From: Nymphaea colorata
Lineage: Eukaryota; Streptophyta; Magnoliopsida; Nymphaeales; Nymphaeaceae
Direction: 5' to 3'
Assembly (NCBI RefSeq): GCF_008831285.2
Contig: NC_045139.1
Coordinates: 2,426,704-2,490,703 of the forward strand
DNA: 64,000 nucleotides
Under the pieces are notes generated by a model, which worked only from the letters and a program-made list of their open reading frames with translations, did no database searches and was not told the origin of the DNA. Within the stretch, counting starts at the first letter, position 1; each line of letters begins with the position of its first letter. This document shows positions 7,811 through 61,552 of this stretch, piece by piece. Position numbers and translations under genes: made by a program.

Positions 7811-7815
7811 GTAAT

Positions 7816-8167
7816 TGTTGGGTCGGGTCCAGCCTCAAAACTCGACCCGGCCCGTCACTTAAGTGACGGCCGGGAGAAAGGAAGGGCACCCGATGGTGCC
7901 CCTTCCTCACGCGTCCTCTCTCACGTCTCTCTCTTTATCTCTTTTGGGGAAAAAGAGAAGGGAAACCTCTTGTGGCTGCATACGAGAGGAGGAGGAGAAG
8001 GAGAAGAAGAAGAGGAAGGCAAGGAAGAGAAGAGGAGAAGCAAGGCGCGTGGGTCGATTGACACGCCAAGAAGAAAGATGAAAGACAAAGAAGGAAAAAT
8101 GAAGGGAGTCTTCGTTAGGTGATTTCTTTCTTGAATCTTTGGAGCTCTTTCTTTCATTCGCATAACA
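7816..8167 (+). repeat. Copia1 5' LTR (352 bp)
   Basis: Starts TGTTGGGTCGG and ends CGCATAACA. It contains a perfect 14-bp palindrome GTCACTTAAGTGAC near 7854 and a long GGA/GAA purine tract at about 7984-8040. It matches 12208-12569 over its whole length with scattered differences. Confidence 0.95.
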
Positions 8168-8170
8168 AAA

Positions 8171-8184
8171 TGGTATCAACGCCA
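8171..8184 (+). other. Copia1 primer-binding site
   Basis: TGGTATCAACGCCA starts 3 bp after the LTR. It differs at two positions from TGGTATCAGAGCCA, the usual copia site complementary to the 3' end of initiator tRNA-Met. Confidence 0.8.
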
Positions 8185-8233
8185 GGTTGGTTGTGTGCAT
8201 TCTTATTAAAGGATGTAGTCGACCCCCACTAGG

Positions 8234-11200: not shown

Positions 11201-12156
11201 ACATCAGAGAGTTCTCATCAGGTAGCTTCATTATCTTGTTGTTATATGTAGATGACATGCTTATTGTTGGACAGGATTGTCAATTGATTGGCCAATTGAA
11301 GATCGATATGGACAAGTTATTTGATATGAAAGACTTGGGGCCAGCACAACAATTGTTAGGCATGAGGATTGTTCGTGATAGAAAGACCAAGAAGTTTGGT
11401 TATCACAAGAGAAATACATTGAGAAGGTGTTTAGCAAGTTCAACATGAAAGATGCCAAAACTGTAAGTACACCTTTAGCAGCACATTTTAAATTGAAAAA
11501 TGAGCAATGTCCTTCTTCAGCAGATGAGAAAGAAAGAATGGAGAATGTTCCATATGCCTCCGCAGTAGGGAGTCTCATGTATGCTATGGTTTGCACACGC
11601 TCAGACTTGGCTTATGCAGTTGGTGTAGTTAGCAGGTTCTTGTCAAATCCAGGCAAGGAGCATTGGGCAACAGTGAAGTGGATCCTAAGGTATCTGAAAA
11701 GTACTTCCACTTACTGTTTATGTTTTGGTGAATCTAATCCAAAGATACAAGGATTTATTGATGCAGGCATGGCACGTGATTTGAACTCTAGGAAGTCTCT
11801 TTCTGGTTATGTTTTTACTTTTGCAGGGGGAGTTGTATCATGACAGTCCAGGTTGCAGAAGTGTGTTGCTCTTTCCACTACAGAGGCAGAATATATTACA
11901 GCAACTGAAGCTTGTAAAGAGTTGTTGTGGATGAAAAGTTTTCTTCATGATATAGGACTTAGTCAGAAGACCTATGTGTTGCATTGTGATATCCAAAACG
12001 CTATACACTTGGCGAAGAATTCAGCGTTCCACTCAGTTAGAGAAGATACAGACAGAGAAGAATCCTGTAGATATGATGACGAAGTCTCTACCGAAGGAGA
12101 AACATGGCATGTGTAGAGACCTAGTTGGGATGACTGTCTTTAAAGCAGTGTATTAA
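8234..12156 (+). pseudogene. Copia1 gag-pol, broken
   Basis: Starts at an ATG followed by NENNWTIWKAKM, typical of copia gag. Then come the zinc knuckle CFHCGIPEHKKIDC (about 8893), protease WILDTGASYHATP (about 9084), GAG-pre-integrase LWYKRLGHMS (about 9475), integrase core with RTDNGGEY (about 9850), reverse transcriptase with YVDDMLIVG (about 11245) and RNase H with STTEAEYITA (about 11874). In-frame stops lie at 8558, 8821, 9751, 10273, 10801, 11131 and 11841, with frameshifts near 8555 and 11405. A short deletion near 12030-12050 removes part of the RNase H end. Five of the stops sit where copia proteins have an invariant Trp. Not functional. Confidence 0.93.
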
Positions 12157-12207
12157 TTTTGTTCTTTTTGCAGGTATGTTCCCTCTCTTGAGGTTAGAGG
12201 GAAAGTT

Positions 12208-12569
12208 TGTTGGGTTCGGTCCAGCCTCAAGACCCGACCCTACCCATCACTTAAGTGACGGGCGGGAGAAAGGAAGGGCACCCGATGGTGCCCCTTCCTC
12301 ACGCGTCCTCTCTCACGTCTCTCTCTCTCGTTATCTCTTTTGGGGAAAAAGAGAAGGGAAACCTCTTGTGGCTGCATACGGGAGGAGGAGGAGAAGGAGA
12401 AGGAGAAGAAGAAGAGGAAGGCAAGGAAGAGAAGAGGAGAAGCAAGGCGCGTGGGTCGATTGGCACGCCAAGAAGAAAGAGGAAAGACAAAGAAGGAAAA
12501 ATGAAGGGAGTTTTCGTTGGGTGATTTCTTTCTTGAATCTTTGGGGCTCTTTCTTTCATTCGCATAACA
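12208..12569 (+). repeat. Copia1 3' LTR (362 bp)
   Basis: Second copy of the 7816-8167 LTR, starting TGTTGGGTTCGG and ending CGCATAACA. Differences include extra CT and GGAGAA units and several transitions. The palindrome GTCACTTAAGTGAC is kept. A 218-residue plus-strand frame over this region is LTR read-through, not a gene. Confidence 0.95.
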
Positions 12570-18615: not shown

Positions 18616-19096
18616 CTGCAGTGTCAACGTTGCAGAACATCAAATTGCAGCAAGCTGAAGCAATATCTGAAATTAGCATGCAAACTCACAGCTGTGGTGG
18701 ACACGATGAGGCGATGGGATCCTACCACCGATCCCCTCAATCTCACCAATGATCGGAGTTTGGTCTGAACTCTAGTGCGGGCCAGTCAATTGTTTAATCC
18801 AGCGGAGCATTGCAGTACAGAATTTCAATTCGAGGAGTGGTCGGACTTCAAATCACATCGAATCCGAGATCGAGGATAAACAAACATGGCAGAGACCAAG
18901 ATAGAGACTCCAGAAAGGATTCTCAAAGGTTAATCCCTCAGGAAATTAATCCAACCCTTGAATGGATTTTTTTTCTCCTTGAAACGAACAGGATTTTTTG
19001 TTTGAGAAATTACGAATCTAATGATCAAGTGATAAAATAGTGGGCCTACCTAAGAACAACTCATTTAGATCGCAAATAAACCCCAAAAAACAGAAT
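18616..19096 (-). other. TNL2 intron 1, NB-ARC-proximal part
   Basis: Intron sequence between the exon 2 acceptor (CTGCAG) and the Copia2 insertion. It resembles TNL1 intron 1 at about 7330-7560. No coding content. Confidence 0.7.
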
Positions 19097-19101
19097 CTTT
19101 G

Positions 19102-19391
19102 TGATAAACTGAGACAATGATTAGAAAAGAAGGAGGTGGAGAGAAAGAATGGCACACGGTTTACGTGGTTCAGCTTTGCAGCCTACATCCACGAGCAAGA
19201 GAGACCAATATGATGATATATTCACCACTGCTGATACACTTGTCTTTATACATCAAGGGAATATTAAAAGGAAAGGAAATTTGAGAAATTTCCATAAACA
19301 ATGTATACGTTAATTGATGACCGTTGCCCAACTTTATTTCCTTGCCAATAGTTGCCATATTGATCTTCTTTTGGTCGTTGCAATTCTGTCA
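19102..19391 (-). repeat. Copia2 3' LTR (290 bp)
   Basis: On the element strand it starts TGACAGAATT and ends CAGTTTATCA, the canonical TG...CA ends. A likely TATA box, TGTATAAAGAC, lies at about 19254-19243. The first three bases (19391-19389) also serve as the stop codon of gag-pol. Confidence 0.97.
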
Positions 19392-22300
19392 CTCCCCCTC
19401 AAGTGGGGCGTACATGTTGTGACATCCCCACTTGCTAGTGGCTATATTCAATTTCAGTTTGCTGACTCCTTTAGTTAAGGCATCGGCAACTTGATCGGTG
19501 CCTTTAATGTAAGGAGTTCTAATTTCTCCAGATATGACTTTCTCTCTGATGTAATGACAATCGATCTCAATATGTTTGGTTCTCTCATGAAATACAGGGT
19601 TTGTAGATATGTGTATTGCAGCCATGTTGTCACAAAACATATCCATTGGCTTGGTAATACTAAAACCCATTTCTTCAACAAGGTTCTTAGTCCATGTGAG
19701 CTCACTAGCACCAGATGCCATTGCACGGTATTCTGCTTCTGCACTAGACTTAGCCACCACTCTCTGTTTCTTGCTTTTCCAAGATACTAGATTTCCTCCG
19801 ACAAAAACACAGTATCCTGTGGTAGATCTTCTGTCACTAATGTCACCTGCCCAATCAGCATCAGTAAAACCAACAATGTCAATATTTTTGTTTCTTTTAT
19901 ACCAGAGTCCTTGCCCTGGAGTACCCTTCACATATCTGAGGATGCGATCAACTGCGTTCATGTGAGATTCTCTTGGACTTTGCATATATCTGCTAATGAC
20001 ATTCACAGCATAAGAGATGTCAGGACGAGTAACTGATAGATATATCAACTTACCCACAAGTCGTTGGAACCTTTCTTTTTCAACTTCAGGTTCATCATCG
20101 CAAGGTCCAATTTTGAGGTTTGGTTCAATAGGAGTGTCTGCCGGTCGAGCATCTAACTTTCCAGTCTCCTTTAAAATATCTAATGCATACTTTCTTTGAC
20201 ATAGCATAATACCTTTATACGATTGAGCAACTTCAATACCAAGAAAATATTTGAGTTTTCCCAAATCCTTTATGTCAAAGGTTTTCTTTAAGTAGTCTTT
20301 CAGAATCTGAATGCCTTCTGTATCATTTCCAGCCACAACTATGTCGTCTACGTAAACTAAGACCACAGTGATGTTTTCTCCACATTTTTTGACAAATAAG
20401 CTATTGTCTGAGTGACACTTGTGGTACCTTGATTTTTCCAATGCCTGACTCAACTTTATGTACCAAGCTCTGGGAGATTGTTTTAAGCCATATATAGCTT
20501 TATTGAGTTTGCAGACTCTTCCTTTCCTTTCATCTGGGTGACCTGGTGGTAAAGACATATAAATTTCTTCATTGAGTTCTCCTTGTAAGAAGGCGTTTTT
20601 GACATCTAGTTGATGTAGACTCCAATTCAAGTTGCAAGCAATAGAAAGCAATATTCTCAAGGTGTTCATCTTTGCGACAGGAGCAAATGTTTCTTCATAA
20701 TCCAACCCTTTAGTCTGTGTGAACCCTTTAGCCACTAGACGAGCCTTGTATCTCTCTAAGGATCCATCGCTATTGTACTTTACTCTATAATGCCATTTGC
20801 ACCCCACTATGTTTGTGTTTTTTGGTGCGGTGACAACCTCCCATGTTCTGTTTCGCCTTAGAGCTTCAAGTTCTTCATCCATAGCCTTCCTCCAATTAGG
20901 ATCTTCTTGAGCCTCTTGAAATGACTTAGGCTCTTGAATGTTATCAAGATTTCTAACAAACTTGGCATGATTGTTGGAAATTTGATTGTAGGACACATAT
21001 TTGTTGATTGGGTAGGTTTCATAATCTACTAGGCGTGAAGGAGCGTGCCTAATTCTCTCAGATCTTCTGAGAAGTGTTGAGTTGTTCTCTACATCTTCGG
21101 TAGTAGTTGCAAGTTCTTGATCATTTGTGGGGCTTTCATTCTCAGCATGAATCTCATTATTGGCTCCCTGTACATCAACCACAGTGATAAACAAGTCATC
21201 ATAATCATGCAAAGTTGAGTTAGTGGGCTCCCCCTGACTTTGTCCATCTATATTGACGTTAAAGTAAGAGAGAGATTCATTGAATTGCACATCACGGGAA
21301 ATAAAAGTTTTTCTAGAGACAGGGTTATAGCAAACGTACCCTTTACTTTGCATATCATAGCCCACAAAAATGCATTTAATAGATCGAGGACTTAACTTGT
21401 CTCTTTTTGATGGATGTTGCCACACGTATGCAACACATCCGAACACCCGAAGATGATCGAGCTTAGGTTGAGATCCCATGAGACGCTTGATAGGACTATG
21501 GTAGTTCAACAATTTGCTCGGAGTCCTATTAATAACATAGCATGCTGTAGAAATAGCATATTTCCAATAATTTTTTGGTACATTCATCTGAAACAAGAAA
21601 CTTCTTGCTACTTCGAGTAAATGTCTATTTTTCCTTTCAGATATACCGTTTTGTTGAGGTGTATCCACACAAGACGTCTCATGTCTAATACCATGTTCAC
21701 CAAGAAAAAAATTGAAATCATGATTTTTATATTCAGTGCCATTGTCAGATCTAATACTTTTAATTTTCAGTCCATATTGAGTTTCAATCATTTTGTAAAA
21801 ATTTTTGAAGTGAGAGAACACTTCGGACTTATTTTTCATAAAATAGACCCACATGGTCCTAGAAAAATCATCAATGAAAAGCACATAGTAACGAAATCCA
21901 TCCATAGAATCAATAGGCGCAGGGCCCCAAACATCAGAGTGTATTAAATCAAATGGTTTTTGGCTAATGGAATCAGATAAAGAAAATTTAGGTCTAGTCA
22001 TTCTAGCAAATTTGCATATTTCACACTCTCTACAATTGAAACAAAGATTAGGAAATAGATATTCTAAAATTCTAGAAGATGGATGTCCCATCCTTTGGTG
22101 CCAAATTTCTCCATTGTTGGCATGATTCACGTTCAATGCATGATTCATAGTTCTTATTTGATAGAGTCCATGGATGAGTTGCCCTTCACCAATCGTCTTC
22201 TGAGTCATCCGATCCTGAAAAATAACATTAGTAGCAGAAAATACTACATTGCAATTTAATTCCTTTGTAATTTTAGCAACTGATAGGAGATTGTTAGTAA

Positions 22301-23630
22301 GGTTAGGCATGACAAGCACATTGCTTAAATGACTTTTGTTAAAAAAATCTATTTTACCCGATCCATTGACAGCTATTGGAGCCCCGTTGGCAGCAGCTAC
22401 AGGACCAATATCTTTAGAATGACAATAGGAACTTAAGAGAGAAGATTTATTGGCCATGTGATCTGTTGCTCCCGAGTCAACTATCCATTGTAAATCTTGA
22501 CCATCAATGTTATTAACAGAAGTAAGAGCCATACCTGATTTGATTGTACCTTTGTTCCCCAAGTTGGTTGCGATGCCGGCGGTTCTTTGGACTTGAAGTT
22601 CTTTAATCATTTCAGCCAATTTGTCCAAAGTGATCTGATTTTCCAATGAAGTCGTGGCATGATTTGCTTGATTGGAGTTGTGATCTCTTTTTTCTTGATT
22701 GCGAGCCATGCTTCTAATGAAAGAATTCTGCCCTTTTTCAGGTTTCCCATGAAGGAACCAGCAGGAATCTCGAGAGTGCCCATTCCTCTTGCAGTGAGTG
22801 CACTTGACTTTCCTAGAGTCCTCACGTTTGTATTTGAATGACCTCTCACCGGTGGTAGAATAAGCATTATTGCTTGTTGCAAAAGCCAATTTTTCTTCAT
22901 TGGGTATTTCTTGATAACCGTCAGCCAGCATTCCCATAGCCTTACGCCTGGACTCTTCACGCATAAGCAAGGATAAAACTGATGCTAGAGAAGGCAAATC
23001 ATGGGCCATAAGTATTTGACTACGAAGTTGTTCATAATCATTAGGCAGGCCGGCTAAAATTTCAAAGATGCGATCTTGTTCACGCTGCCTTTTGGCCTTA
23101 GTAAGGTCTGTAGTAAGAGGTGAGTATATGTCCATCTCATCCCATATTGCTTTAAATGTACCAAGATATTCACTAATAGATGACATTCCTTTTTTCAAGC
23201 AACCCTTCTTTTGTGCTAATTGATACATACGGGCAGTATTGTATTGTTCTCCATAAAGGTCTTTGGCCCCTTGCCAAACTTCTTCGGCGGTTTCTAAGAA
23301 GGTAAAACTTGTTGCGATCTTGGGCTCCATAGAATTTATGAGCCAAGATGCTACAGTGTCGTTGGTGGACCTCCATTCCTTGTATTTTGGATCATTAATG
23401 GCAGGTTTTTTTATACTACCGTCAATATAATCCAACTTAGATTTTCCACTAAGAAATCGTGTAACTGCCTTAGACCATGGCAAATAGTTGAAACCATCAA
23501 GCAAGGTGTGAGTAATTTTGAGATTGGGGTTACCTTGTTCATGAACGACAATCTTATGCATCGACCCATCGCTGGTTTGAATGATGGTGGCTTCATCGTT
23601 GTCATTCCTGGTTTCCCTTTCTTGCTCCAT
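19389..23630 (-). CDS. Copia2 gag-pol polyprotein, intact (1413 aa)
   Basis: A single open frame from the ATG at 23630. Order: gag (residues about 1-270), zinc knuckle CTHCKRNGHSRDSC (about 277), aspartic protease WIVDSGATDHM (about 385), GAG-pre-integrase IWHQRMGHPS (about 510), integrase with SDVWGP and IRSDNGTEY (about 560-720), reverse transcriptase with VYVDDIVVAGND (about 1120) and RNase H with KSSAEAEYRAMA and KHIEIDCHYIREKV (about 1290-1390). Protease-integrase-RT-RNase H is the copia order and the length is normal for the family. It makes particles, reverse transcribes its RNA and integrates the cDNA. It differs clearly from Copia1, so it belongs to another lineage. All key motifs are present. 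Confidence 0.97.
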   Translation of the reverse strand: MEQERETRNDNDEATIIQTSDGSMHKIVVHEQGNPNLKITHTLLDGFNYLPWSKAVTRFLSGKSKLDYIDGSIKKPAINDPKYKEWRSTNDTVASWLINSMEPKIATSFTFLETAEEVWQGAKDLYGEQYNTARMYQLAQKKGCLKKGMSSISEYLGTFKAIWDEMDIYSPLTTDLTKAKRQREQDRIFEILAGLPNDYEQLRSQILMAHDLPSLASVLSLLMREESRRKAMGMLADGYQEIPNEEKLAFATSNNAYSTTGERSFKYKREDSRKVKCTHCKRNGHSRDSCWFLHGKPEKGQNSFIRSMARNQEKRDHNSNQANHATTSLENQITLDKLAEMIKELQVQRTAGIATNLGNKGTIKSGMALTSVNNIDGQDLQWIVDSGATDHMANKSSLLSSYCHSKDIGPVAAANGAPIAVNGSGKIDFFNKSHLSNVLVMPNLTNNLLSVAKITKELNCNVVFSATNVIFQDRMTQKTIGEGQLIHGLYQIRTMNHALNVNHANNGEIWHQRMGHPSSRILEYLFPNLCFNCRECEICKFARMTRPKFSLSDSISQKPFDLIHSDVWGPAPIDSMDGFRYYVLFIDDFSRTMWVYFMKNKSEVFSHFKNFYKMIETQYGLKIKSIRSDNGTEYKNHDFNFFLGEHGIRHETSCVDTPQQNGISERKNRHLLEVARSFLFQMNVPKNYWKYAISTACYVINRTPSKLLNYHSPIKRLMGSQPKLDHLRVFGCVAYVWQHPSKRDKLSPRSIKCIFVGYDMQSKGYVCYNPVSRKTFISRDVQFNESLSYFNVNIDGQSQGEPTNSTLHDYDDLFITVVDVQGANNEIHAENESPTNDQELATTTEDVENNSTLLRRSERIRHAPSRLVDYETYPINKYVSYNQISNNHAKFVRNLDNIQEPKSFQEAQEDPNWRKAMDEELEALRRNRTWEVVTAPKNTNIVGCKWHYRVKYNSDGSLERYKARLVAKGFTQTKGLDYEETFAPVAKMNTLRILLSIACNLNWSLHQLDVKNAFLQGELNEEIYMSLPPGHPDERKGRVCKLNKAIYGLKQSPRAWYIKLSQALEKSRYHKCHSDNSLFVKKCGENITVVLVYVDDIVVAGNDTEGIQILKDYLKKTFDIKDLGKLKYFLGIEVAQSYKGIMLCQRKYALDILKETGKLDARPADTPIEPNLKIGPCDDEPEVEKERFQRLVGKLIYLSVTRPDISYAVNVISRYMQSPRESHMNAVDRILRYVKGTPGQGLWYKRNKNIDIVGFTDADWAGDISDRRSTTGYCVFVGGNLVSWKSKKQRVVAKSSAEAEYRAMASGASELTWTKNLVEEMGFSITKPMDMFCDNMAAIHISTNPVFHERTKHIEIDCHYIREKVISGEIRTPYIKGTDQVADALTKGVSKLKLNIATSKWGCHNMYAPLEGE
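19392..19402 (-). other. Copia2 polypurine tract
   Basis: On the element strand TTGAGGGGGAG sits directly before the 3' LTR. This is the expected plus-strand primer. It overlaps the last codons of gag-pol (encoding LEGE). Confidence 0.85.
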
Positions 23631-23681
23631 AATGACTCACTGTTTGAAGCTTGATGGTGTTTGTCTCATATGATCTTCTTA

Positions 23682-23694
23682 TGCTCTGATACCA
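23682..23694 (-). other. Copia2 primer-binding site
   Basis: On the element strand TGGTATCAGAGCA follows the 5' LTR with no spacer. It is the standard copia site for initiator tRNA-Met. Confidence 0.92.
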
Positions 23695-23984
23695 TGATAA
23701 ACTGAGACAATGATTAGAAAAGAAGGAGGTGGAGAGAAAGAATGGCACACGGTTTACGTGGTTCAGCTTTGCAGCCTACATCCACGAGCAAGAGAGACCA
23801 ATATGATGATATATTCACCACTGCTGATACACTTGTCTTTATACATCAAGGGAATATTAAAAGGAAAGGAAATTTGAGAAATTTCCATAAACAATGTATA
23901 CGTTAATTGATGACCGTTGCCCAACTTTATTTCCTTGCCAATAGTTGCCATATTGATCTTCTTTTGGTCGTTGCAATTCTGTCA
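23695..23984 (-). repeat. Copia2 5' LTR (290 bp)
   Basis: Base-for-base the same as 19102-19391 as far as I can compare by eye. The promoter-like TGTATAAAGAC is at about 23847-23836. Both LTRs contain the same 62-residue chance open frame. Confidence 0.97.
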
Positions 23985-24160
23985 CTTTGCTTAGTAAATA
24001 TTTCGATAAATTTGATTCTGACGAGGTTTTGCCATCGAAAGGTGTAGTAAAATAAGAACTCCCAACTAAAAACGTTTATAGTAAATTGAAAACTGAGAAA
24101 TGGCCGACTTTAAACTTTTGGGTTCAATCCATCGAAGAGAGAAAGAGAAAGAGGGAGTAC

Positions 24161-24627
24161 TCTTTCACCACATGCCCAATTTTCTGACCAACTGCCCTCA
24201 AAGCAGCCTTCCATGATTCGATCAACGATCTATTCACATGGCCTGCATTCTCGTGCCCGCTGAAGGCCTCCCCGAACTTCCCTTCCAACTTCTTCACATG
24301 GCCGACCTCGACTCGGTAGAACACCGGAATTATCCACCGCCCGCAGTCCACCATCTTTGCTATCTCCCGGAGACACCACTCGGACTCGGCGTAGTTTTCG
24401 GAGATCACGGCTACGAACACCTCCGACACCTCAATCTTGTGCATCAAATGCGCTATCCGCTCGCCCGTCTTCAACTCCTCGGTGTCCCTGAACGTCCGGA
24501 TGCCATGGTCTCGGAGGGCGTTCTAGAGATCGCGCATGAAGGTGTGGCGAGTGTCCTTCCCTCTAAAGCTCAGGAATACATCGTACTGAAATCCGGTGGC
24601 CGAAAAGGATCCGCCATTTTTCTCCAT
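24161..24627 (-). pseudogene. TNL2 exon 1: TIR domain with a nonsense codon
   Basis: Start ATG at 24627 (MEKNGG), then YDVFLSFRGKDTRHTFMRDL, a TAG at 24525-24523, and the rest of the TIR: IRTFRDTEEL, the alpha-C helix with the presumed NADase glutamate in SEWCLREIAKMV, WIIPVFYRVE and the ESWKAALRAVG helix. The exon ends at donor GTACTC. TNLs normally have Tyr at the stop position (DLYxAL), so one base change in a Tyr codon explains it. The remaining 135 or so residues are well conserved, so the lesion looks recent. The rest of TNL2 continues beyond Copia2 at 18615. Confidence 0.9.
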
Positions 24628-31977: not shown

Positions 31978-34863
31978 CAAAGTAGTTTGAAAGTATCTCC
32001 TACCAGTAGCGGAGGCAGATATGAGTTTGTGGCAATTGCCCACACAAACTCACATACATTACTTATATGAATACTAACAAAATATTGTTGTCGTTGATGA
32101 ACAATCTAACCAACTCCATCTATGAAATTCGTCTAAAGTTTCACAAAGAATTCCCTCTCTCTCTCTCTCTTTTTCTAAGAATTCGCCTCTGACTAGCTCC
32201 CTCGGTCCCTCCTTTTCTCTTGTCTTTTGCTTGTTCGGTCCGTTCTCTTGTTTTTTTTTTCTGTTCATGCTCAAATTACTGTTTTTGCATGTTTTTTGCC
32301 CTTGCTTTCTTTTTTATTTTTCTCCCTTGTTGCTTGTACCTTTCTCTTTTATTATTTGTTGTTTGTTTGGTGAAGCCTTATCATTATTTTGTCTTGAATG
32401 GATTGTCAAGTTGTCCACTCTCTTTTGTCTCTTGATATCGGCAACTTAATGTCTAAAAATCATGTTATGGAGAGAAAACGGAACGTTTACCTTCTTTTTC
32501 TTAATAATAGTCGTGCACATTAGTGTGTTCAAAGACGTTGAGGAATATTTTGCAATCTTTCATGTACATCTTCATAATATTATTACATCATTCTCGCGTT
32601 TTCACATTTCCAAATTCACATCCACTCTCTTGGGGATTAATTCAACCAAACCAAGTTCACAGCTTGCTGCAGTTACTAAACAATAAAGATTTTTACCAGG
32701 CACCTCTCTCTCTCCCTAACTGACAGACACAATCTTTTGCCAGAACTATACTATAATTATGTCAAGTACATACTACTTACACAAATTTAAAAAACAATAA
32801 CTTTCTTCAACTAAAAATTTATGTATTTGTGCATACCGTCATTTAAATTTCTTACTGTGGCACTGTATTCAGTGAAAGCTAAGAAGCAGAGCAGCTTGGA
32901 AGCGGGCCAGAACGCAGGCTCCCGTGTTGATTTTTTGTTTTAAGTATTCAATTTCTTTCGATCCTTTTAAGGAGAGTTCTTCTTTCATCATAAAAGGCAT
33001 TCCGGTTATTTCGGGCCCTGGAACTGCACTCTGTGTTCAGGACTGAATGTCTAACCTCCTGCGGTTAAGAGGAGTTTGTATTTGAAACTTTATTAAGACC
33101 CTCATGAAAGAAGAAAGCTCATATGAAAAAAAAACAAAAAACTTTAAGAGAAGTTGGTATTCGAAACTTTATGAAAACCCTCATAAAGAAAGACCTGATG
33201 TGGAAAGAAAAGAGGTCAACTATTTCTTTGCTTCCTCATCTATGCAAAAGAAAGTGGGAGGAACGTCCTTCACTAGCAGCTTCCCACAAGTCAACTTGGG
33301 CATTGAGATTTGGATCTGGATTCCCAAAAAAAAAAGGGACATGATCTTGTCTCAAATGGATATATATTTGTCACAGTAATCTGCATTTCCAACTTTAGAT
33401 TTCACAGTTCAAGTTGTTTTGCCTTCAATTTGATGGTCTGTATGGCTCGTTTAATGACCACAGTATTGATTAACAATCTTTACACGATCGACTCCTATTT
33501 TCTTGATTATGGATTTTATGAACTTGAAAGAAACATTAAAGTATTTGAAAATTTAATATTAAAATGAAAAAAATAGAAAAATAAAAACCTTGTACTGGCC
33601 TTGTGTAATATGGATAAGTATACCCTTTGTGATTTTTCTATCCTGGAAAGAATGTTCTCAGCTTAAAAAACTTGGTGCATTTTCAGACATTAATTTTTCA
33701 GTCACCCATAACTCTGATCCGAGTTGGATCTCGGCAATTTCGGAAGTAGTTCATATTAAATTAAAAGTTGGAAAAAAAATCCCATTTTTCGGGTTCCAAT
33801 CGAGGCAAACACGTCGCACATAACGTAGATGGCACCTTCTGACTTTCCCTCTTACCATACCTGAGCAGATGATTATTTCTCATATACTGTCATATGCCTG
33901 GTTGGCATGCTAATATTAAACAACCGATCGTTTCAAGTATCTCTATGCTCATAATTTAACATTGTTTTCCTCAGTCTAATCTTACAGATATGATTATATA
34001 TCAAATAAACAAAAAATACTTGTAAATATGTACTTTTCTGACATATATTTTCTTGAACATTAAACAATCAGCGGCTCATATAACAGAAGAAAAGACTTGA
34101 TGATTATATGTCTAATTTACAATATTTATTGAAACTAATTTGAAACCAGAGAATGATTGATAAGGAACAAGCAACACACAGCATGTCAGCATGTTCCGGT
34201 TAATTCACCAGACATATTGTACGCATGTTTCTAAGGTTTCGACTTTCCGTACGTCTAAAATACAAGTTTGTGCGGCTTCATTCGAACTCAGTGGACCCAT
34301 CAAAAGTCTGTGGTACATAAAAGAAGCGAGAGAGCAAAGCAGCCAACCAAGATGGGTTTACCTATTTCGTTATCTTCATTGTTTTTTTGAGCGCGTATCA
34401 GTCGAACCGACCTATACGCCGTATCGTAACGTACCGCAAACATAGCGTAGTGTATCGTAAAATTAATTTTTTTAATTTAAAAAAAATAAAAAATAAAAAA
34501 ATCATTAAAAATCTAAAAAAATGAACATAAAATCAAAAATGAAGAAAAATGTATTCAAATATAAAAAAAGTCTTCATACATAGGAACATTCATGTGTATC
34601 AACGACACATTCAAAAATAAGAAATCAAATATTCAAGAATAACATATAAGCATTCATCACAATTTTAAACTTGAAAAGTTTATAGAATCGACATAGAGTC
34701 TTAGGACTTGGAGTTTTAAGACTTAGATTACATCAGTTCAAAACATATAGTTATCATTTTTCATGATTCAATCCTTGGTTATTTTTTATAAAATTAAGCA
34801 AAATCTCTCCCTCCTACGTTTATTGGATAACATTGGTGGGAATCAATTTTGAACAAACTTATA
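31977..34863. other. intergenic between the orphan LRR exon and the minisatellite
   Basis: No gene seen. A fragment with the GTAGCGGAGGCA hAT-type end lies at about 32004. 33068-33195 holds two diverged direct copies of a segment with GTATT.GAAACTTTAT..A.ACCCTCAT.AAAGAA. 34.45-34.6 kb is A-rich low-complexity DNA. If the orphan LRR is an alternative TNL3 3' end, this stretch is intron. Confidence 0.45.
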
Positions 34864-35525
34864 TAAACCAAGCCGAAATGAACACAACTTACTGAAGTCA
34901 TAAAGTGAACAAACTTATAGAAACCAAGCCCAAATGAACACAACTTACTAAAGTCATAAAGCCGATATGTTTATTGGATAACATTGGCCTATTGAATAAC
35001 ATTGGTGGGAATCAATTTTGAACAAACTTATAGAAACCAAGCCGAAATGAACACAACTTACTAAAGTCATAAAGCCGAAATGAACACCACTTACTAAACT
35101 CATAAACCAAGCCGAAATGAACACAACTTACTAAAGTCATAAAGCCGAAATGAACACAACTTACTAAAGTCATAAAGCCAAAATGAACACAACTTACTAA
35201 AGTCATAAAGCCGAAATGAACACCACTTACTAAACTCATAAACCAAGCCGAAATGAACACAACTTACTAAACTCATATATATAATGAAGGAAATGAACAC
35301 AACTTACTAAAGTCATAAAGCCGAAATGAACACAACTTACTAAACCCATAAATATAATGAAGGAAATGAACACAACTTACTAAAGTCATAAAGCCGAAAT
35401 GAACACCACTTACTAAACTCATAAACCAAGCCGAAATGAACACAACTTACGAAAGTCATAAAGCCGAAATGAACACCACCAAGCCGAAATGAACACAACT
35501 TACTAAACTCATATATATAATGAAG
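34864..35525. repeat. 33-37 bp minisatellite array
   Basis: At least fifteen units built on GAAATGAACACAACTTACTA followed by AAGTCATAAAGCC (33 bp) or AACTCATAAACCAAGCC (about 37 bp), with variants ending ATATATAATGAAGG. The left edge is a higher-order copy in which the unit is joined to ATTGGTGGGAATCAATTTTGAAC. Because 33 is a multiple of 3, minus-strand frames stay open and give the repetitive peptide SCVHFGFMTLV; I regard this as chance. Confidence 0.93.
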
Positions 35526-35870
35526 GAGCTGAATAATACTCAAGCGACACCAAGCAGATTAAGCAGATTAAATCTTCTTGGCCTGTATGGGCTGATAGTT
35601 AATTCTCACAAGATATATATGTTACTTGCTTAAAATAGCATGTACAATGCCACTTACCCGACCAATTCGCACACTAGGTTTGGATCGCTGGTCTGACGGA
35701 TTCCAGACCAGTCCCCAAAATTCTTCTGTACTGACTCACAAAGGCTAAGAACCAATACGTCAACTCACTTACAACTTTTTACAAGTCCCTCAAAATTACT
35801 TACTCTTAGATACAGGACTAAAACTTTTGGGTGTAACACTTCATATCTTTTGCTCATACTGCCTTTCAAG

Positions 35871-38800
35871 TCTTTAGCTTGTTCCACTTCCATCATTCAC
35901 CTTGCGTGCTCGCCTCCGTAATTTGCGGAAATCAGCACTGATCTTCAAGTCATCCAGTCTCCAAATATCCCTGGGCAGTTCAGAAACCTCAGTACCTTTT
36001 ATATCTAAGCTTCGTAGATTCTTCAGTTGTATAATAGAGGCAGGTAAGCTTCCTAGTCTATCACAGTAAGATGCTTGTAGGACCTCAAGATTTTCCAAGA
36101 GACCTATTGATTCAGGCAGATAGCGGATGTTGGTTCCATCTAAACAAAGCCTCTTAAGGTTTCTTGCATTGCCTAAAGAATTCGGAAGACTATTCAATGT
36201 ATAACACTGTGTTGCTTTCAGTTCTTCCAGATTTTCTAAACACCCGATAGAATCAGGCAACTCTTGGATTCCAGAACTATCCAAGTAAAGAACCCTCAGA
36301 TTATTTGCATTTCCAATTGAATTAGGCAAAGCACTCAACGCCAAGCAATCCCTGAGATCAAGTGCTTGGAGGCTGCTCAAAAGTCCAACTGTATCCGGTA
36401 TGCTTTGAACCATGATACCACGCAAGTTGAGCTCCTTCAAGGATTTCATCTCTCCAAGCTGTTCAGGTAAAGTGTTAATATAGACGCACCCTTCAAGGGC
36501 AAAGTTTTCAAGCTTATTCAACCTGAAGATATCATCAGGCAATTTCTTTAGCCACTGGCATCTTTTCATACTCCAGTAGACCAAACGCTTAAGATGTGAA
36601 ATAGATTCATGAACTTGAATCAAGGCACAACAATCATCAAGCACCAGTTTTTCTAGGCGTGGAACACTATCAAAATTGGGAGTGACTTTAAGATGGTTGC
36701 AGCCAGTCAGATCCAGGACTTTCAGTTTATCAAATACCTGCAGGGTAATTTTCCAGTTCTGTCATTATTAACAAAGAGAGCAGACAAAACGAAAAGGCAC
36801 GTTTCATTTGCAACAAACAGACAAGCTCATAAGGTATGAGGATATCATCCTTCAGAAGTTCACCTTGTTAGTCATAGTTCCCGAGCTGTTACCACTCCAC
36901 ACATTGGTAATGCTACTATGAAATAAATCAAGAACCACAAGTTCCTTGAGTTGTAAGTCATCTGGCAGCGAGTCCAACATACATCCATGCCATTGCAACC
37001 ATTTCAATTTGGTAGGAAAGTTATGAAAATGACCTTCAAAGTCTACAGCATTAACATGTAGCAGTCGAAGTTGGGTGATTGCAGCAAAAGCTTCTGTACT
37101 GAAATATGCTCTAGGACTATACCATTCATAATCAAGAGCCATGCACTCTATGTTCCTTGTTCCCTGTACATTGAACAAGTAAATCAAACATTCATGTGGT
37201 ACACCAATAGCAAATTTCAATTTTGGGTAATGTAAGCCAATCCCTTAAATGGAAGTTAGTCCTGTGCAAATAAAGCAGCTAGGGTACCTGCATACAGGAA
37301 TTCTGGTCTTCATGTTTCAACATGATAATCTATGCCCTAGAAGTGAAGTAAGTCATATTAGATAGATACCCATAAACTATACTCAGCATGGGCTTCCAGA
37401 AAAATGAACCAACCCCTAGCTTTTCAAACACATATTCAAAATCAAGACCCTGTCACAATATTTACATCAAAATTGAGACCAAAAAATCTAGAAGCATAGC
37501 AGATATAAAGGAAAAACAAAATTAATGGCTGCAAAAGATAAGAAAAAAAAAATCAATATTCTACAAACTAATGTTACAACATACATTTCAACCTAGAACC
37601 AAATTCTAAAATGCTAGAGCTTCAGAAACAAATCTAGATCAGAATGAGTAATCTTGTAGCAGGTACTCAGAACAGATTGTACTGAGCCCTGCATGTGATA
37701 CTGGAATATTTATTAGTCAAATGCAGTGCATTCATGATGCGTCATACTTGAGTCAAACCTGTAACTTTCGACCTAAATCTTCTTGGCCAAGCGATGGTTT
37801 TCGACTAAAATTAATGCTAAATGAAGATGCGTTATTCTTCTACCATTAGAACTTCATCCTAAACTAAACTGTGATTATTCACTTGAGTAACAAATACCAG
37901 AAAATTTTTCACATGTTTGATGAATTTTCCTCCATGCCTTCTAGAACATGAGCATGTATTACGTGAACATATTACTTATATCAACTGATTTAGAGCAAAA
38001 ACTAATCTATATCTTACCTTGTGGTTTTCTAACACATCTAGTATTTCATCTTCCTTCCACAACCTGCTACGCTGTTCTGGGAGGCTTTCATGCAAAACTA
38101 TATGCATACCCATCTCTCGAATTTGTTCGTGCATTTGAAACTCATCTTTGCTGCTGTCAATCTTAATAAGAGATTTATGCAAGAATACCTTAAGTGCTAT
38201 AGTTGGAAAAAAGTTAGACGCCCTCCACATATGAATGGCATTAGCTTTGCCTCTTCCACTGAAAAAACATGCAATGTCCAAAAATATTTGCTTTTCCTCT
38301 TCATCAAGTCCATCATAACTTATTTTCAGTCTTTGATGGACATCCTTATGTTGATCTTGCTTCACCCTTTCCCATGCTTCGTCCCATTCCTCAATACTTC
38401 TCTTATCGAAAAAAAATGAGCCAAGTACTTCAAGGGTTAATGGCAATCCGCCAGTAGTTGATGCAATTTCCTTAGATAACACTGCATAGTTCTCTATGGG
38501 TTTTGCAGTCCCAAAAGCATGGTAGCTAAAAAGCTCGAGTGACTGTTCAGGATTTAAGCCTTCAAGCTGGTAGGTCTCATGTTCTTTCAACCCGTGAACG
38601 TTTAATATATGTTTATTTCTCGTCGTGATGATAATCCTACTTTCTGGGGAAAACCAATCTCGGCTACCAGCAAATGCACTGATGTGACTCCTTTCACCGA
38701 CATCATCAAGAATGATCAGCACCCGCTTGCAGTGTATCCTTCTCTTGATCAGATTTATTCCCTGGTCAACGCTATTTATAGAAACATTTTTGTCATTGAG

Positions 38801-39819
38801 AACCTCACGTATGAGCTGCTCTTGCAGAGACGTGAGGCCATTGCGTCGTTTGGCTACCTCTTTAATATCTGAAAGAAAACAGCTTGCTTCAAATTTGCTG
38901 GAAATTCTATTGTAGACAGCCTTTGAGAGGGTAGTCTTTCCTACGCCCCCCATGCCATATATACCAGCCATTCGAACACCACGGGAGGTTAGGCTTAACA
39001 GCTTCATAATATCAACAGCAAGAGGTTCAAGTCCAACAGGATACCTTGCCACATCAAGAGAGACCTTGCTTCTTTCATCAACAACCCTCTTAACAATAAA
39101 TTGGACAAGCTTGTGCTCTTTCCTATAAAAGGAAAGCAAAAGAGCGAACTTAGCTGCTGTGTAGTAGCATCAACATGGTATCAAGGAAACCAAATAACAG
39201 GAAAAGAAAAAGGGCGAAACACACAGAGAGAGAGAGAGGTATACCCATAAGCCTCGTTTTGGATATCGTAGCCTTTGATTTCGCCTGTTTCTTTCAACGC
39301 ATCCCTCCACTTTTTCACCGTCTTACTGTCCAAGTCCTGGCTCTCTTCATGCTTTCTGAACGCAGATTCGTAAGATCCCCTTTGGTTCCTGACCTCTCGA
39401 GGCTCGACGTCGTAGAACACCGGCAGCACCAACCGCTTCAATTCGACCATCCTCGCGACTTCCATGAGGCAGACCCTGCAATCGGCATAGCCTTTGGAGA
39501 AGATGGGTATGAAGATGCCGGACCTCTCCATGGCTCCTAAAACCTGCTCCACACTTCCAAACTCCTCTCTACTCTCCTTGTCCACGAAGAAACATGTGCC
39601 CAGGTCGTGAGCTTTGAGGGCCTCGCAGAGGTCTTGTGTGAAGGCCTTGCTGCTGCCATCTCCCAAACGAAAGCTGAGGAACACATCGAACTCGAACTCA
39701 CCATCACTCCCCAATGTTGGTGATGAACACGACGACGATGACGGCGACGACGGCCAAGACTCTGGCAAAGGCGACACTCCCTCACGTCTGTGGCCCTGGA
39801 TACTGGTCAATGTGGTCAT
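35871..39819 (-). CDS. TNL3: complete TIR-NB-LRR gene (948 aa, four exons)
   Basis: Exons: 39819-39245 (TIR), 39122-38018 (NB-ARC), 37163-36864 (linker), 36737-35871 (LRR). Their sum, 2847 nt, is exactly 949 codons including the stop, and all splice sites are GT/AG. The start is ATG 39819, the first ATG of the open frame. A Ser/Pro-rich leader of about 43 residues precedes FDVFLSFR. The TIR has the presumed catalytic Glu in VCLMEVARMV but lacks the usual Trp before it. The NB-ARC has GMGGVGKTT (about residue 248), RVLIILDDVG, GGLPLTLEVLGS and a MHE in place of MHD. About ten LRRs follow, ending in a basic tail RKLRRRARKV without a C-JID. Predicted role: intracellular immune receptor whose TIR hydrolyses NAD. 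It is more diverged from TNL1/TNL2 than they are from each other. The 5' leader lies inside a large inverted repeat. Confidence 0.93.
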
Positions 39820-39865
39820 TCCAGAAACCAGATCTCCCCAAAACAGGGACAGGGAAAAGAGGGTG

Positions 39866-40060
39866 GGGAGTACTCTGATCACATGAACTGCCAATCAAGA
39901 TTTGTATAAGATGTACAAGCTTCACCTTCCAAATTATCTGGTAAGTGGTCAATGCTACGAGACTTGATCACTATTAGGCTTTGGGTGGAGGCAATGAACT
40001 ACTGGTCCGACAATAGTTCGACGGAGTTCATCGACGCGGCTATCCGTGGAGAAGTCCATG
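39866..40060. repeat. left arm of a long inverted repeat upstream of TNL3
   Basis: 195 bp, reverse complement of 40537-40338. By eye the arms differ at three bases and one 5-bp unit (TTGGG is extra in the right arm), about 98% identity. The arm begins 46 bp upstream of the TNL3 start codon, so it covers the expected 5' leader or core promoter. Confidence 0.95.
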
Positions 40061-40337
40061 TCATCGCATATTTTTTCAATGCCAATTGCAGCTTCGCCAT
40101 TCTTGATAACTGCATTTCCAAGTTCGATGCTCATTTCACAAAACCAACGGCTCTCTTGGCATTCAGTTCATCTTCAACCACAGTCACCAGGGTGGACGCA
40201 GGGTGCGGCAGAAAACGAAACGCAGCTTTGTCGATGCGACGTGCTGATGTGACTCGTATTCACACCTCATCACTTTAATGAAAAATATTATAATAATAAA
40301 TTATTAATAATAATAAATACTCTCTCGCTGCACTTAA
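40061..40337. other. 277-bp spacer of the inverted repeat
   Basis: The left two thirds are GC-rich and coding-like. On the minus strand a frame (SIELGNAVIKNGEAAIGIEK) runs from the spacer into the left arm. The right third is AT-rich (TATTATAATAATAAATTATTAATAA). No family recognised. Confidence 0.6.
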
Positions 40338-40537
40338 CATGGACTTCTCCACGGATAGCGGCGTCGATGAACTCCGTCGAACTATTGTCGGACCAGTAGT
40401 TCATTGCCTCCACCCAACCCAAAGCCTAATAGTGTTCAAGTCTCGTAGCATTGACCACTTACCAGATAATTTGGAAGGTGAAGCTTATACATCTTATACA
40501 AATCTTGATTGGCAGTTCATGTGATCAGAGTACTCCC
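40338..40537. repeat. right arm of the long inverted repeat
   Basis: 200 bp, inverted copy of 39866-40060. Read on the plus strand from 40339 it gives a 61-residue open frame starting MDFSTDSGVDELRRTIVG; the left arm gives the same protein in reverse orientation until the 5-bp indel shifts it. This looks like a captured piece of an exon, but I do not recognise the gene. Confidence 0.95.
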
Positions 40538-41534
40538 TAGCCTCGTCCCACTCAATTGGTGAAGTGTTGATTAATACAATAGTTCAAGGTAACGCTCAAG
40601 TAGCCAATTCCATAAATGTAAATTCATATATAAGCACAATTCAATCTTGAAATTGCAAGTCGTATTCTTCTCATGGGTTTACAAGAGTTGGGCATAAGCC
40701 TCTAAAGGAATTAAATAAGAGAGACGTTAATGGGTGGCACCTAATAGCAACACAGTCCCTTTCTCTGCTGAACCGCATGGACCAGCATCACTAATGTCAG
40801 GCCAGCGACTTTTCTAAAGGAATTAGATAGGCTCCATATCAGCATTACGAATGTCAGCCCAGGGACTTTTCGAAAAGCCAAGTTAATTATATTCTTCGTG
40901 CAGCGACTTTTCAAAAGTCAACTTATCTCTATTCTTTATGTTGTAGTGGGTTCTAAGTTGGCAGCATTGACTTTATATTGTATTCTGGGAGATTCTCATA
41001 AGAAAATAATGATGCAATCAGTTTTGAGAGTCCAAATTCATTCAAGAGGTGTTCTGTTTTTTTCCGTAGATGACGGCAGACACCACAGTTTGCTTATAAT
41101 CTGCTTTTCAGACCACCTGCCTGTGGACCTTTGGTTGGAGATGTTGGATTTTTACGAGTAACCAAATGGTCCACCTATAAGTGAAAAGATGGTCGGACAC
41201 TCTGGGAGAAGTGTAATTCTATTCCCGAAGTGTATTACGGACCATATAGAGCACCTGTTCTGTTGGTGCGTCCTCTGCAATTTCCTCGCACCTTGCCGGC
41301 CCTGCCGTTCCATTTCGGAGAGAAAAAAAGAGAGAAAAGGAGTCTCTTCCGAAATAACTATGTTTTTACAACAGAATAACTATGTTTTTACAACAGAATG
41401 TAATTCATTCAGACACTGAAACTTTAAAAGACTCGTTATTCAGGTAATATAGATTGTTTATGTACAGCCCCTGCGATAGATGTGTGAGCATTACACAGAA
41501 ACAGACCAGACACTGACCCAATTGCTAACAGCTA
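40538..41534. other. intergenic between the inverted repeat and the SOUL gene
   Basis: No gene seen. 40.78-40.92 kb repeats the phrase CAGCGACTTTTC three times with variation. A 22-bp unit, ATAACTATGTTTTTACAACAGA, is tandemly duplicated at about 41356-41399. The right end is the SOUL 3' UTR. Confidence 0.5.
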
Positions 41535-43984
41535 TTAGTAAGAACTTAAACTAGAAGCAGTGGGGCAACCTCCTTGCGGCCCAACCACATCCACCCACAC
41601 CTCATTGGTGCGTCCAATAAACCTGAATGGGCTATTGTACTGTGCAATCGAGTAGGCATATTTGTCTTCATCAAAAGTAGTTGAATTTGCCCATGGAGAT
41701 CGTCCAAGGCTTGTTGCCAAGCTCTGTGCCTCCTTCACGATATTACTGTCACGAGCAAACCCAGAGAATTTCCTTACTGCAACGCACCGGCCCTCCCATT
41801 TCTCTTCTTGCAAGTCCAGTTCTGGAAGTGGGAGTGGTGGAGTTTCCTGAAATTTCGTGGGCAGGTAAAATCTCACGATGTACCCAGAGGAATACAGTGG
41901 TCCAGATCCAGGTACAATGCTGGTAAGTACTGGAGCAGTCATGGGGATCCGTGAGAAATTCAGGTTAGCACCTTGAATATACTGAAACAACCTGTTTGGT
42001 GAACAAAAAACATCAGGAATTCGTATAAAGATACATGGACGGCATATATGAGGATTGTGTTGATCAAGTTCAAATATTACAAGCCTTTCAGACTTTACAG
42101 CAGCTGAATAACTAATCAAATCTTAACACGAGTGAACGTCCAGTACATGGATGTGAATCTTGGTTCACAGCAATGGCTTCCACAGTGATAACCATCCAAC
42201 TTCACTTCAAAGAATACAACAACTCAATCACGATCCACGCTGCTGAGTGCTGATTCTTTTCTTCATGAAATGACATGACTGACAAGTATTAAATTGCACG
42301 ACCTAAAGTAAATGGAGTAAAAACCGCTATGAAGGCAATAGAACTTATATGCACAATCTCAATTTAGTAGGAGAAACTCCTGAATTTCTTTTTCTGGAGT
42401 TAGAACCTTTATTCACGGTTTCATCAACCATAACAAGTCAATGCTCAAGCATGTCTTGTTTCTTTGTATATCAGACAAGCTGTACAAACTTGCAATTTCC
42501 TGGGACGTTAGCAAGCTGGTGGTTCTTCAACAATGATAATCTTACGTTACTCATACCCTCAGCAGTCAGCACAATATGAAAAGGGTAAGACCACATTCAA
42601 GATGAGTTACCGAACTCCTGAATGACATTGAGAATCCTGAATTTCAAATTTGAAAATTCTCACAATGATCCAGCATGATAAAGAAGCAAGTGTTCGTCCA
42701 GAAAAAACTTTGTCAATTGATCCAGTTCAAGTTCAAGCAACCAACATCTAGTAAAAGAAGAAAGTATCTTATTCAATTTTCATAAACACAAATGTCAGCG
42801 CACCTTCAATTTATCATCGAAATTATTCTACTACTAGCACAAGAAATACTGAGTCACATTAATTCTAACTAGAGTTATATTAGTTTCCCGGAGGTACTTG
42901 ATTAGAACAAACCATCGAACAGAAGGATCAGGAAAAGAGGAAACACTTTCCAACAGTTTCATCAAAAGTCGACATTCACGCACTTAACCCTTCAGCTAAG
43001 GCTTTTAAATCTTGCTCAGGTAGAAGAAAGAAAGGGAGGCAGGAAAAAAAATAATAATCCAGGCCCCATTTTGGGGAAAAGTCTCATTAACTATCAGCTT
43101 TTTTTCTTACTATGTGCATATTATTTCAAAAGATCACATCACTATTCTTCATGAAGCAATTTTACAGGTCTATTCTAAAATTTCTCCAACTGTTAAATTC
43201 CAAACAACAAAAAGTCAAAAAGCCAAAGGCCGATACATCTAAATGTTCTCTGTAATATTCCTTTTTCTCTTCTGATACGTATACTTTCATATACAACCAT
43301 ATATAGACGACCACTGTTCAAGTGGAAGCAATTTCTAGTGACTGTTTAAACGTACAATCATATACGTGTTCCTCATTACCAAAGCACACAAGAAACAAGT
43401 ACCAGAACCAACAGAATTACACATCAAACTAGATCATTGAAGACAATGATCAAGCAATTCGACCCTCCAAAGGGAACCCAAAAAGTAAGGGCACCATTTT
43501 AAATATGAGGAAAGAAAGGTGGACTGCTCATATTACCGACTCTAAGAGCGCCCATCTGGACGCAAGTGACTACCAACAAAATTATTTTCTTCTTTTGCCT
43601 ATGAAATAAGCATAAACAGAAGACCGATTCTAAGAAAATCCATCTGAAAACAGGTAAAAGGTTCCTTCCTTTGCTCAACAATCGTACAATTTTCAATGGG
43701 ATCGACGCAAAAGTAATGAAGAAATTGGTATTTCTGCGAAGGAGAAAACCATAAGGAAAAGAAGCGGACGGGACCATGAATTACCTGTGGAAACCGCCCC
43801 TTGTGGACTTCTCGAAGGATATATCTTGGACTAACGCAGACATCCATGAAGATTCCCTGTACAATCTGATTTCGAATTCAGACTCCGAGTGGATGAGGGT
43901 AAACTGAGGGGATTCGATTCCCAGGCCTTGGACAGAGAAGGCTAAGAAGGTCGCGAAAAATAAACAGAGAAAGTTCCTCCCCAT
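41535..43984 (-). CDS. SOUL haem-binding family protein (218 aa, two exons)
   Basis: Exon 1 (43984-43785) starts at MGRNFLCLFF, a clear signal peptide (hydrophobic run LCLFFATFLAFSVQGLG), followed by the first strand of the SOUL fold (FTLIHSESEFEIRLYRESSW). Exon 2 (41991-41535) continues HRLFQYIQGANLNFSRIPMTAPV, the diagnostic SOUL motif, then PTKFQETPPLPLPEL and FSGFARDSNI to the stop. 200 plus 457 nt is exactly 219 codons; donor GTAATT and acceptor AACAG are canonical. The 1.8-kb intron has no coding content. Plant relatives bind haem or tetrapyrroles; the signal peptide points to the secretory pathway. Length is usual for the family. The upstream ATG in the same frame (near 44038) is less likely because it lies before the hydrophobic start. 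Confidence 0.95.
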
Positions 43985-61005: not shown

Positions 61006-61552
61006 TAGGGGTGAACAACAAGTCGAGCTCGAGTAGCTCGACTCATTAAAACTTGGCTCGTGAACGAGTTCGAGCTGAGTCATTTGCTTAACCAGTCAAG
61101 CTCGAATTCATGAGTCGACCTGTTCAAATAATCGAGTTGAGTTCGAGCTCAAAACATAACTGCAAAATTGATCTTGAGCCTTAATCGAGTTTGTCAACCC
61201 GTAATTAAGTCGATATATTCAAACAAGTTTGCCGAGTTTTAATCGAGTCGAGCTCGAGCTCGAGCTCAACATGTAACGATGAATATCAATTATATTCAAA
61301 CGATTTTGCTGAGCGTTAATCGAGTCGAGCTTGAGTTCAACACGTAACGATGAATATCAATTCTATTCAAACGAGTTTGTTGAACCTTAATCGAGTTGAG
61401 CTCAAGCTCAACATGTAGCTGCCGAGTCAAGCTCGAGTTACTTCCATCAAGCTATTCTCAAAGCTCGAGCCAAGTCAAGCTTGAGGTTTTTTTAGTTTAG
61501 CCGAGCTCGAGCTGACTGAACTTGGGCTCGACTCGGCTCATGTTCACCGCCA
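61006..61552. mobile_element. hAT-type MITE, 547 bp, GAGCTCGAG-rich
   Basis: Ends TAGGGGTGAACA and TGTTCACCGCCA are inverted copies at 9 of 12 positions. The flanks GTCCAAGG (60998-61005) and GTCCAGGG (61553-61560) form an 8-bp target duplication with one mismatch. The interior contains three diverged internal copies of a segment with AACGATGAATATCAATT and CAAACGA.TTTGCTGA, and many GAGCTCGAG words. No coding capacity, so it depends on a transposase elsewhere. Confidence 0.8.

Follow-up and report, generated by a model that had tools for sequence, protein, structure and literature searches.

The window, the whole 64-kb stretch of Nymphaea colorata DNA analysed here, carries TNL3 on its minus strand. 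The gene has a first-exon open frame with a TIR domain and a second open frame with NB-ARC and winged-helix domains, the latter related to Roq1 (7jlv, E 9.7e-74). Since both frames are open, TNL3 may be a functional gene. Upstream of TNL3 and on the same strand, a SOUL-domain frame ends at 41535, so the intergenic stretch is about 1.7 kb long, and it contains the inverted repeat under study. The features of the locus are as follows.

37979 to 39169, minus strand: TNL3 open frame with NB-ARC and winged-helix domains (Pfam NB-ARC 1.9e-31, WHD_ROQ1 3.3e-14)
39184 to 39819, minus strand: TNL3 first-exon open frame with TIR domain (Pfam TIR 1.4e-20 for 39184-39894)
39817 to 39819, minus strand: first in-frame ATG of TNL3, 46 bp from the left arm
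39866 to 40061, no strand assigned: left (gene-side) arm, 196 bp, homology reaching 39859, probably the parental copy
39902 to 39908, minus strand: weak TATA-like site in the left arm, 1 of 11 minus-strand matches in 39820-41540
39947 to 39952, minus strand: W-box-like TTGACC of the left arm, with a mirror counterpart in the right arm
40062 to 40336, no strand assigned: spacer of 275 bp, beginning with unique sequence and ending in a MITE fragment
40178 to 40337, plus strand: most likely the front part of a hAT-like MITE, ending where the right arm begins (from alignments, TIR and TSD)
40337 to 40537, no strand assigned: right arm, inverted, 201 bp, homology reaching 40544, probably the derived copy
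40413 to 40422, no strand assigned: approximate position of the additional 5-bp TTGGG (minus-strand reading), from the arm alignment and the sequence
40451 to 40456, plus strand: right-arm counterpart of the left-arm TTGACC, in mirror orientation, from the motif scan

The best-scoring paralogue of the TNL3 TIR exon in the genome was 55% identical (among 150 scored of 242 candidates). By eye count, about 62 of these 150 scored TIR-exon matches, query included, fall in C2:1.69-3.79 Mb, and this 2.1-Mb stretch around the window is a large TNL cluster in which some members have in-frame stops. Directly 3' of the TNL3 LRR frame, positions 34821-35540 hold an array of related units (AACCAAGCCGAAATGAACACAACTTACTAAA...) with a spacing of mostly 33-73 bp. 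A Copia-like LTR element (named by eye) occupies 19102-23986; its two LTRs, each of 292 bp, are 100% identical, and its open frame runs to 1415 codons. It lies between an apparent TIR exon (about 24127-24585, with an in-frame stop) and an NB exon (17952-18623), and is apparently a recent insertion splitting a second TNL. A second Copia-like element, at 7815-12569, has LTR-like ends that are 94% identical over 363 bp and sits between other TNL pieces.

Comparison of the two arms by BLASTN (39859-40061 against 40544-40337) gave 198 identical positions out of 208, with five mismatches and one 5-bp gap, at an E of about 2e-93 in the window search and 1e-95 in the pairwise search. The same two blocks were returned by a repeat finder, and the inverted repeat was confirmed as genuine, far above chance expectation. 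Between the arms proper (39866-40061 and 40337-40537) we counted three substitutions (C/T, T/A and G/C) and one 5-bp indel, as the first-pass annotation had described. The indel is an additional TTGGG unit carried by the right arm, and the remaining two mismatches lie within the outermost 7 bases of the extended homology. The annotation had also given the arms and spacer as 195, 200 and 277 bp, a geometry that we recovered as 196, 201 and 275 bp by inclusive counting, and its distance of 46 bp between the gene-side arm and the TNL3 ATG was reproduced, with the A of the ATG at 39819 and the arm start at 39866. Arm divergence is 3/196, or 1.5% (Poisson 95% 0.3-4.5%), which at an assumed rate of 7e-9 per site per year would put the age of the arms at about 1 My. 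Because only 3 of 196 positions differ, the event that formed the arms would be recent, or the arms would have been converted, two alternatives that are indistinguishable here; the earlier reading of the high identity as recent origin or ongoing conversion agrees with this.

We assessed how unusual such a structure is and whether its parts recur. With a seed of 14 and a minimum length of 60, three inverted pairs were detected in the 64-kb window, two being halves of the TNL3-upstream repeat and the third consisting of two AT microsatellites (72%). Under dust-filtered BLAST with fixed limits (arms of at least 60 bp, at least 80% identity, gap of at most 1.5 kb, E at most 1e-5), the TNL3-upstream repeat was the one inverted pair in the window. 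The same dust-filtered search found no comparable repeat in 20 random 10-kb stretches of the own genome (200 kb, 10 contigs), a small control sample in which a count of zero is compatible with up to about 15 per Mb. Upstream stretches (17.9 kb in all) were also taken for 12 other TIR exons, picked from the 150 scored matches; none contained an inverted repeat under laxer limits (at least 40 bp, at least 75%), and three short similarities of other TNL upstream regions to 39600-41500 all lay in the TIR coding part.

When the left arm with its flank (39820-40070) was searched against the genome (408 Mb, 783 contigs; E up to 10), two candidate places were obtained, both were scored, and they proved to be the two arms; no homologous target loci were found elsewhere in the own genome at E<=10. 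The first 214 bp of the spacer (40062-40275) and the flank beyond the right arm (40538-41540) each had one place in the own genome, single-copy statements that hold at the sensitivity of a search which passes over very common words. The arms thus appear, from this search, private to the TNL3 locus.

The right part of the spacer is different, being most likely the front portion of a dispersed hAT-like MITE. Positions 40275-40337 are repetitive, with at least 39 other places in the own genome at 88-98% identity (40 of 99 candidates scored). A diverged MITE copy (L004) matched the spacer fragment at 91% over 56 bp and at 76% over 63 bp, the latter match covering 40204-40266 in the correct order. 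Support along the fragment is secure for 40282-40337, probable for 40204-40266 and weak for 40178-40203; full MITE copies compared with 40178-40275 alone gave 24.7 bits, where the highest of 100 mononucleotide shuffles reached 22.0, a weak signal. Among 25 fetched loci, several of them near-identical, both ends were located by script in nine; the left end was wrong in four of these (L014-L017), and another (L031), a shifted match, was set aside. The fetched copies have terminal inverted repeats CTATGTCACCAG...CTGGTGACATAG, and 8-bp TSDs, matching at 7/8 or better, were present at 4 of the 25 loci examined (L020, L024, L029 and L030). Being dispersed, with TIRs and 8-bp TSDs, the family qualifies as a MITE family, and the window fragment itself lacks the 3' end. 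We take the family to be hAT-like from its TSD length. The 3' part of the MITE was absent elsewhere in the window (four full copies as queries, E <=0.01), and MITE homology ceases at 40337, which is the inner edge of the right arm.

Related sequence occurs at other places. In the window, a short stretch at 13062-13105 matches the AT-rich core of this hAT-like family at 80% identity. A MITE-type AT-rich core is also found inside a larger repeat (L005-L008, own genome C8), of which up to 2.6 kb is shared in pieces about 97-99.7% identical; four copies of this larger repeat are at C8:1.42-1.52 Mb.

We consider it probable that the repeat is a locus-private inverted duplication of a TNL3-upstream segment, with a break in the MITE and the left arm as parent, and that it is most likely near-neutral. 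The left arm is taken as parental because only the right inner edge coincides with the interruption of a known repeat: truncation of the MITE is expected if the right arm forms the new junction, and is a coincidence if the left arm is the insert. This edge is our one pointer to the copying direction, and a parental allele without the duplication was not seen. In the event that we envisage, a break or template switch would have occurred inside the old MITE, at about 40337, and the gap would have been filled by backward copying of the nearby upstream segment, from about 40061 to 39859. The end would then have been joined to unrelated unique sequence at 40545 and the remainder of the MITE lost, making the left arm the parent and the right arm its copy. 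Arm-against-arm BLASTN showed that the spacer is not mirrored at the TNL3 locus. At the inner junction, comparison with MITE relatives suggests a microhomology of about 1 bp. This falls below the 2-8 bp described for 13 of 21 sequenced human fold-back junctions (longer repeats are given for three more; the accessible part of PMC3907307).

The opposite direction, with the right arm older and the left arm an insert that gave TNL3 a new proximal promoter, agrees with the outer edge of the left arm lying just 46 bp from the ATG and with our finding nothing else resembling the leader in the window or the genome, but it requires a chance truncation of the MITE at the inner edge of the right arm, and we regard it as decidedly improbable. 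In overall shape the repeat also resembles a non-autonomous DNA transposon that has landed upstream of TNL3, either a long-TIR MULE or a foldback element, with the 200-bp arms as its terminal inverted repeats. Such a transposon should have relatives and a target-site duplication. The arms end in an 8-bp palindrome (GAGTACTC) that is readable as a TSD, and these ends (GAGTACTC or TA) could serve as an 8-bp or 2-bp duplication; the exact 7-8 bp direct matches at the ends are this palindrome, which lies within the arms. Beyond the arm-end palindromes, the flanks of the 39859-40544 unit showed no exact direct repeat of 7-11 bp (15 best listed) and no repeat of 8-11 bp with one mismatch. Membership of a MITE or TIR transposon family is therefore opposed for this unit, for which neither a TSD independent of the arm ends nor further genome copies were found. 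As no further copies of the arm, the 214-bp spacer part or the outer flank were found in 408 Mb, the repeat does not look like a copy of a repeated transposon, and the spacer, made of unique sequence and a truncated member of another family, also speaks against this origin, which we judge very unlikely. Least credible is an inverted chimera made in assembly or library preparation: inverted duplications are a recognised class of artefact, but the arms are separated by three substitutions and a 5-bp tandem unit, the spacer has no mirror copy and the outer flank runs on as single-copy sequence.

Several other identities were tried and rejected. A coding origin of the arms was examined by six-frame translation of 39800-40800, and seven pieces searched against Pfam gave two hits far below the cut-off (E 0.12 and 0.17); two translated pieces of the arm region had no match in PDB at E <=10. 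A plus-strand frame through the left arm and spacer had weakly coding-like codon usage (0.10-0.14, where the references, both in the training set, scored 0.10 for SOUL and 0.27 for the TIR exon), which was treated as noise because a homologue was not found. A bacterial or phage origin was dismissed, as the matches listed (five of seven plasmid records and five of 18 phage records) were at most 50 bp long with E of 2 to 9, and a sigma-70 promoter scan is not applicable to a plant. For known MIRNA precursor families, there was no Rfam match in the window at the gathering threshold.

We next considered how the locus could be transcribed. An RNA across both arms was predicted to fold into a stem of about 200 bp, with an energy of -450.6 kcal/mol where 20 shuffles averaged -184 (z -43). 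The first-pass annotation had proposed that a transcript through both arms would form a duplex and feed small RNAs; the folding capacity bears out the first part, while the idea of TNL3's own mRNA as the hairpin is opposed by the geometry of the locus. TATA-like matches on the minus strand lie at 39908 in the left arm, at 40292 and 40319 in the spacer, at 40489 and 40498 in the right arm, and beyond it at 40632 and five further places. TNL3 transcription directed by the site at 39908 would begin close to the end of the left arm that faces the gene, and the right-arm copy of this site would point the opposite way. A TNL3 start in the left arm or the spacer would read at most one arm. The TATATA at 40632 allows a transcript over both arms, and an RNA starting beyond 40544 contains both arms, with at least 16 upstream ATGs and the 200-bp stem before the TNL3 ATG; unless this upstream part is spliced out, such an RNA should be translated poorly. 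Because an outer start puts these ATGs and the stem ahead of the coding sequence, we think that the productive TNL3 mRNA is without the hairpin and that any dsRNA would come from other transcription. Expression of TNL3 would thus begin within the left arm or the spacer, and crossing transcription (minus-strand read-through, antisense or Pol IV) would be the sole source of the roughly 200-bp duplex. Any siRNAs arising from it would have the TNL3 locus itself as their main target.

The prospect that small RNAs are made is weighed here against related cases. A review, as far as its text was available, puts the gene-near Arabidopsis inverted repeats making 24-nt siRNAs at about 486 of 634 (PMC12595863). 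In the accessible part of another paper, hairpin transgenes are reported to be invariably methylated in the repeat and the adjacent promoter, with mismatches preventing methylation (PMC9263138). Given the Arabidopsis base rate and this reported methylation, the chances for and against some 24-nt siRNA from the TNL3 arms seem evenly balanced. A measurable effect on TNL3 expression is unlikely, and the repeat is most likely near-neutral in operation. Any homology-guided effect should act mainly in cis, since no other homologous locus was found at E<=10, a search that covers matches longer than siRNA length.

Self-silencing, in which RNA across the arms is diced to 21-24-nt RNAs that methylate or repress the TNL3 promoter or leader in cis, concerns the function of the repeat, whereas the other alternatives concern its origin, so our confidences in the preferred account and its rivals are not exclusive. 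The near-perfect arms and the strong fold are in keeping with self-silencing, as are the frequent 24-nt siRNAs of gene-near inverted repeats noted in the review excerpt (PMC12595863). For an artificial inverted repeat built from promoter segments of the TNL gene RMG1 (180 bp) and of RLP43 (137 bp), the accessible text describes hypermethylation and impaired induction (PMC7880685), and the available section on PAI1-PAI4 describes read-through that produces fold-back dsRNA (PMC3203196). Mismatches of the kind reported to prevent hairpin-transgene methylation are few in the TNL3 arms (PMC9263138, in part). Against this, the likely TNL3 starts read one arm only, the inner arm and spacer are not CpG-poor although the outer arm is, and one of the three arm differences is a C/T change; we consider self-silencing unlikely.

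The CpG observed/expected ratio was 1.24 in the inner arm, 1.2 in the spacer and 0.19 in the outer arm, against 0.55 for the window, and other windows reach higher values. With the inner arm and spacer rich, the outer arm poor and higher ratios elsewhere, CpG content gave no clear verdict as a marker of past methylation, and together with the C/T count it does not clearly point to methylation over a long period, though the repeat appears young. CpG-rich, G+C-poor patches also occur at 34190-34400 and 61051-61131 (280-bp windows starting there; ratios up to 2.9 and 2.0). W-boxes numbered four in 39820-41534 against about two expected (1.19 per kb in the window) and are not clearly raised.

The TNL3-upstream repeat most likely belongs to the known class of gene-proximal inverted repeats. 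Like the polymorphic inverted repeats of Arabidopsis (Arce et al. 2023, as cited in the available text of PMC12595863), which lie within 3 kb of a gene and are hairpin-capable, it lies within 3 kb of a coding gene, at 46 bp from the TNL3 ATG. About 68% of the Arabidopsis repeats are attributed to transposons there, whereas the TNL3 repeat looks like a private duplication of its own upstream DNA. With PAI1-PAI4 of Arabidopsis Ws, as described in part of PMC3203196, it shares an inverted endogenous duplication and the need for a transcript over both arms to make dsRNA; PAI, however, is a whole-gene tail-to-tail repeat with homologous targets elsewhere, whereas the TNL3 arms are 200 bp of upstream DNA for which no such targets were found. 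The IR-RMG1p/RLP43p transgene is close in another respect, as it too contains inverted TNL upstream DNA in segments of comparable size (180 and 137 bp) with W-box-type motifs; according to the excerpt it is artificial and 35S-driven (PMC7880685), whereas the TNL3 repeat is natural, has no known driving promoter and is not clearly enriched in W-boxes.

Human fold-back inverted duplications share the inverted copy beside its parent and the single-copy spacer (PMC3907307, accessible part), and the TNL3 spacer is single-copy over its first 214 bp, its right end being the repeat fragment. The human cases are large and mostly have terminal deletions, whereas the TNL3 repeat is 200 bp and interstitial, and inverted homology of 2-8 bp or longer is given in the same text for 16 of 21 human junctions, against about 1 bp here. 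Proto-MIRNA loci derived from inverted duplication of target genes (Allen et al. 2004, cited in the available portion of PMC10575705) likewise combine a young inverted duplication with an NLR locus, but their arms are coding sequence, whereas the TNL3 arms are upstream DNA with no trans target found. In the titles and abstract openings listed for the open-access literature, we recognised no report of siRNA production from a naturally occurring inverted repeat of an NLR promoter.

Whether or not small RNAs are made, the truncated MITE at the arm edge gives both the likely direction of the event and a dating marker that can be sought in relatives. It is distinctly improbable that the repeat is a young natural cis-only silencing switch, in which the TNL3 promoter would be its own hairpin source and would dampen TNL3 until demethylated. 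Crossing transcription, by read-through or induced antisense, would in that case methylate the arms, the presumed core promoter and the W-box-like site, and the locus would parallel, in nature, the artificial IR-RMG1p/RLP43p transgene, with itself as the sole target. Should small RNAs be made, the locus would be a natural experiment of unusual clarity on whether a receptor comes under RNA-directed silencing simply through inverted copying of its own promoter, because no other arm-homologous locus was found in the genome. Should none be made, the locus would show that nearly identical inverted arms next to an NLR may be no more than a scar of DNA repair, so that tallies of regulators based on inverted repeats close to immune genes would need to be read with care.
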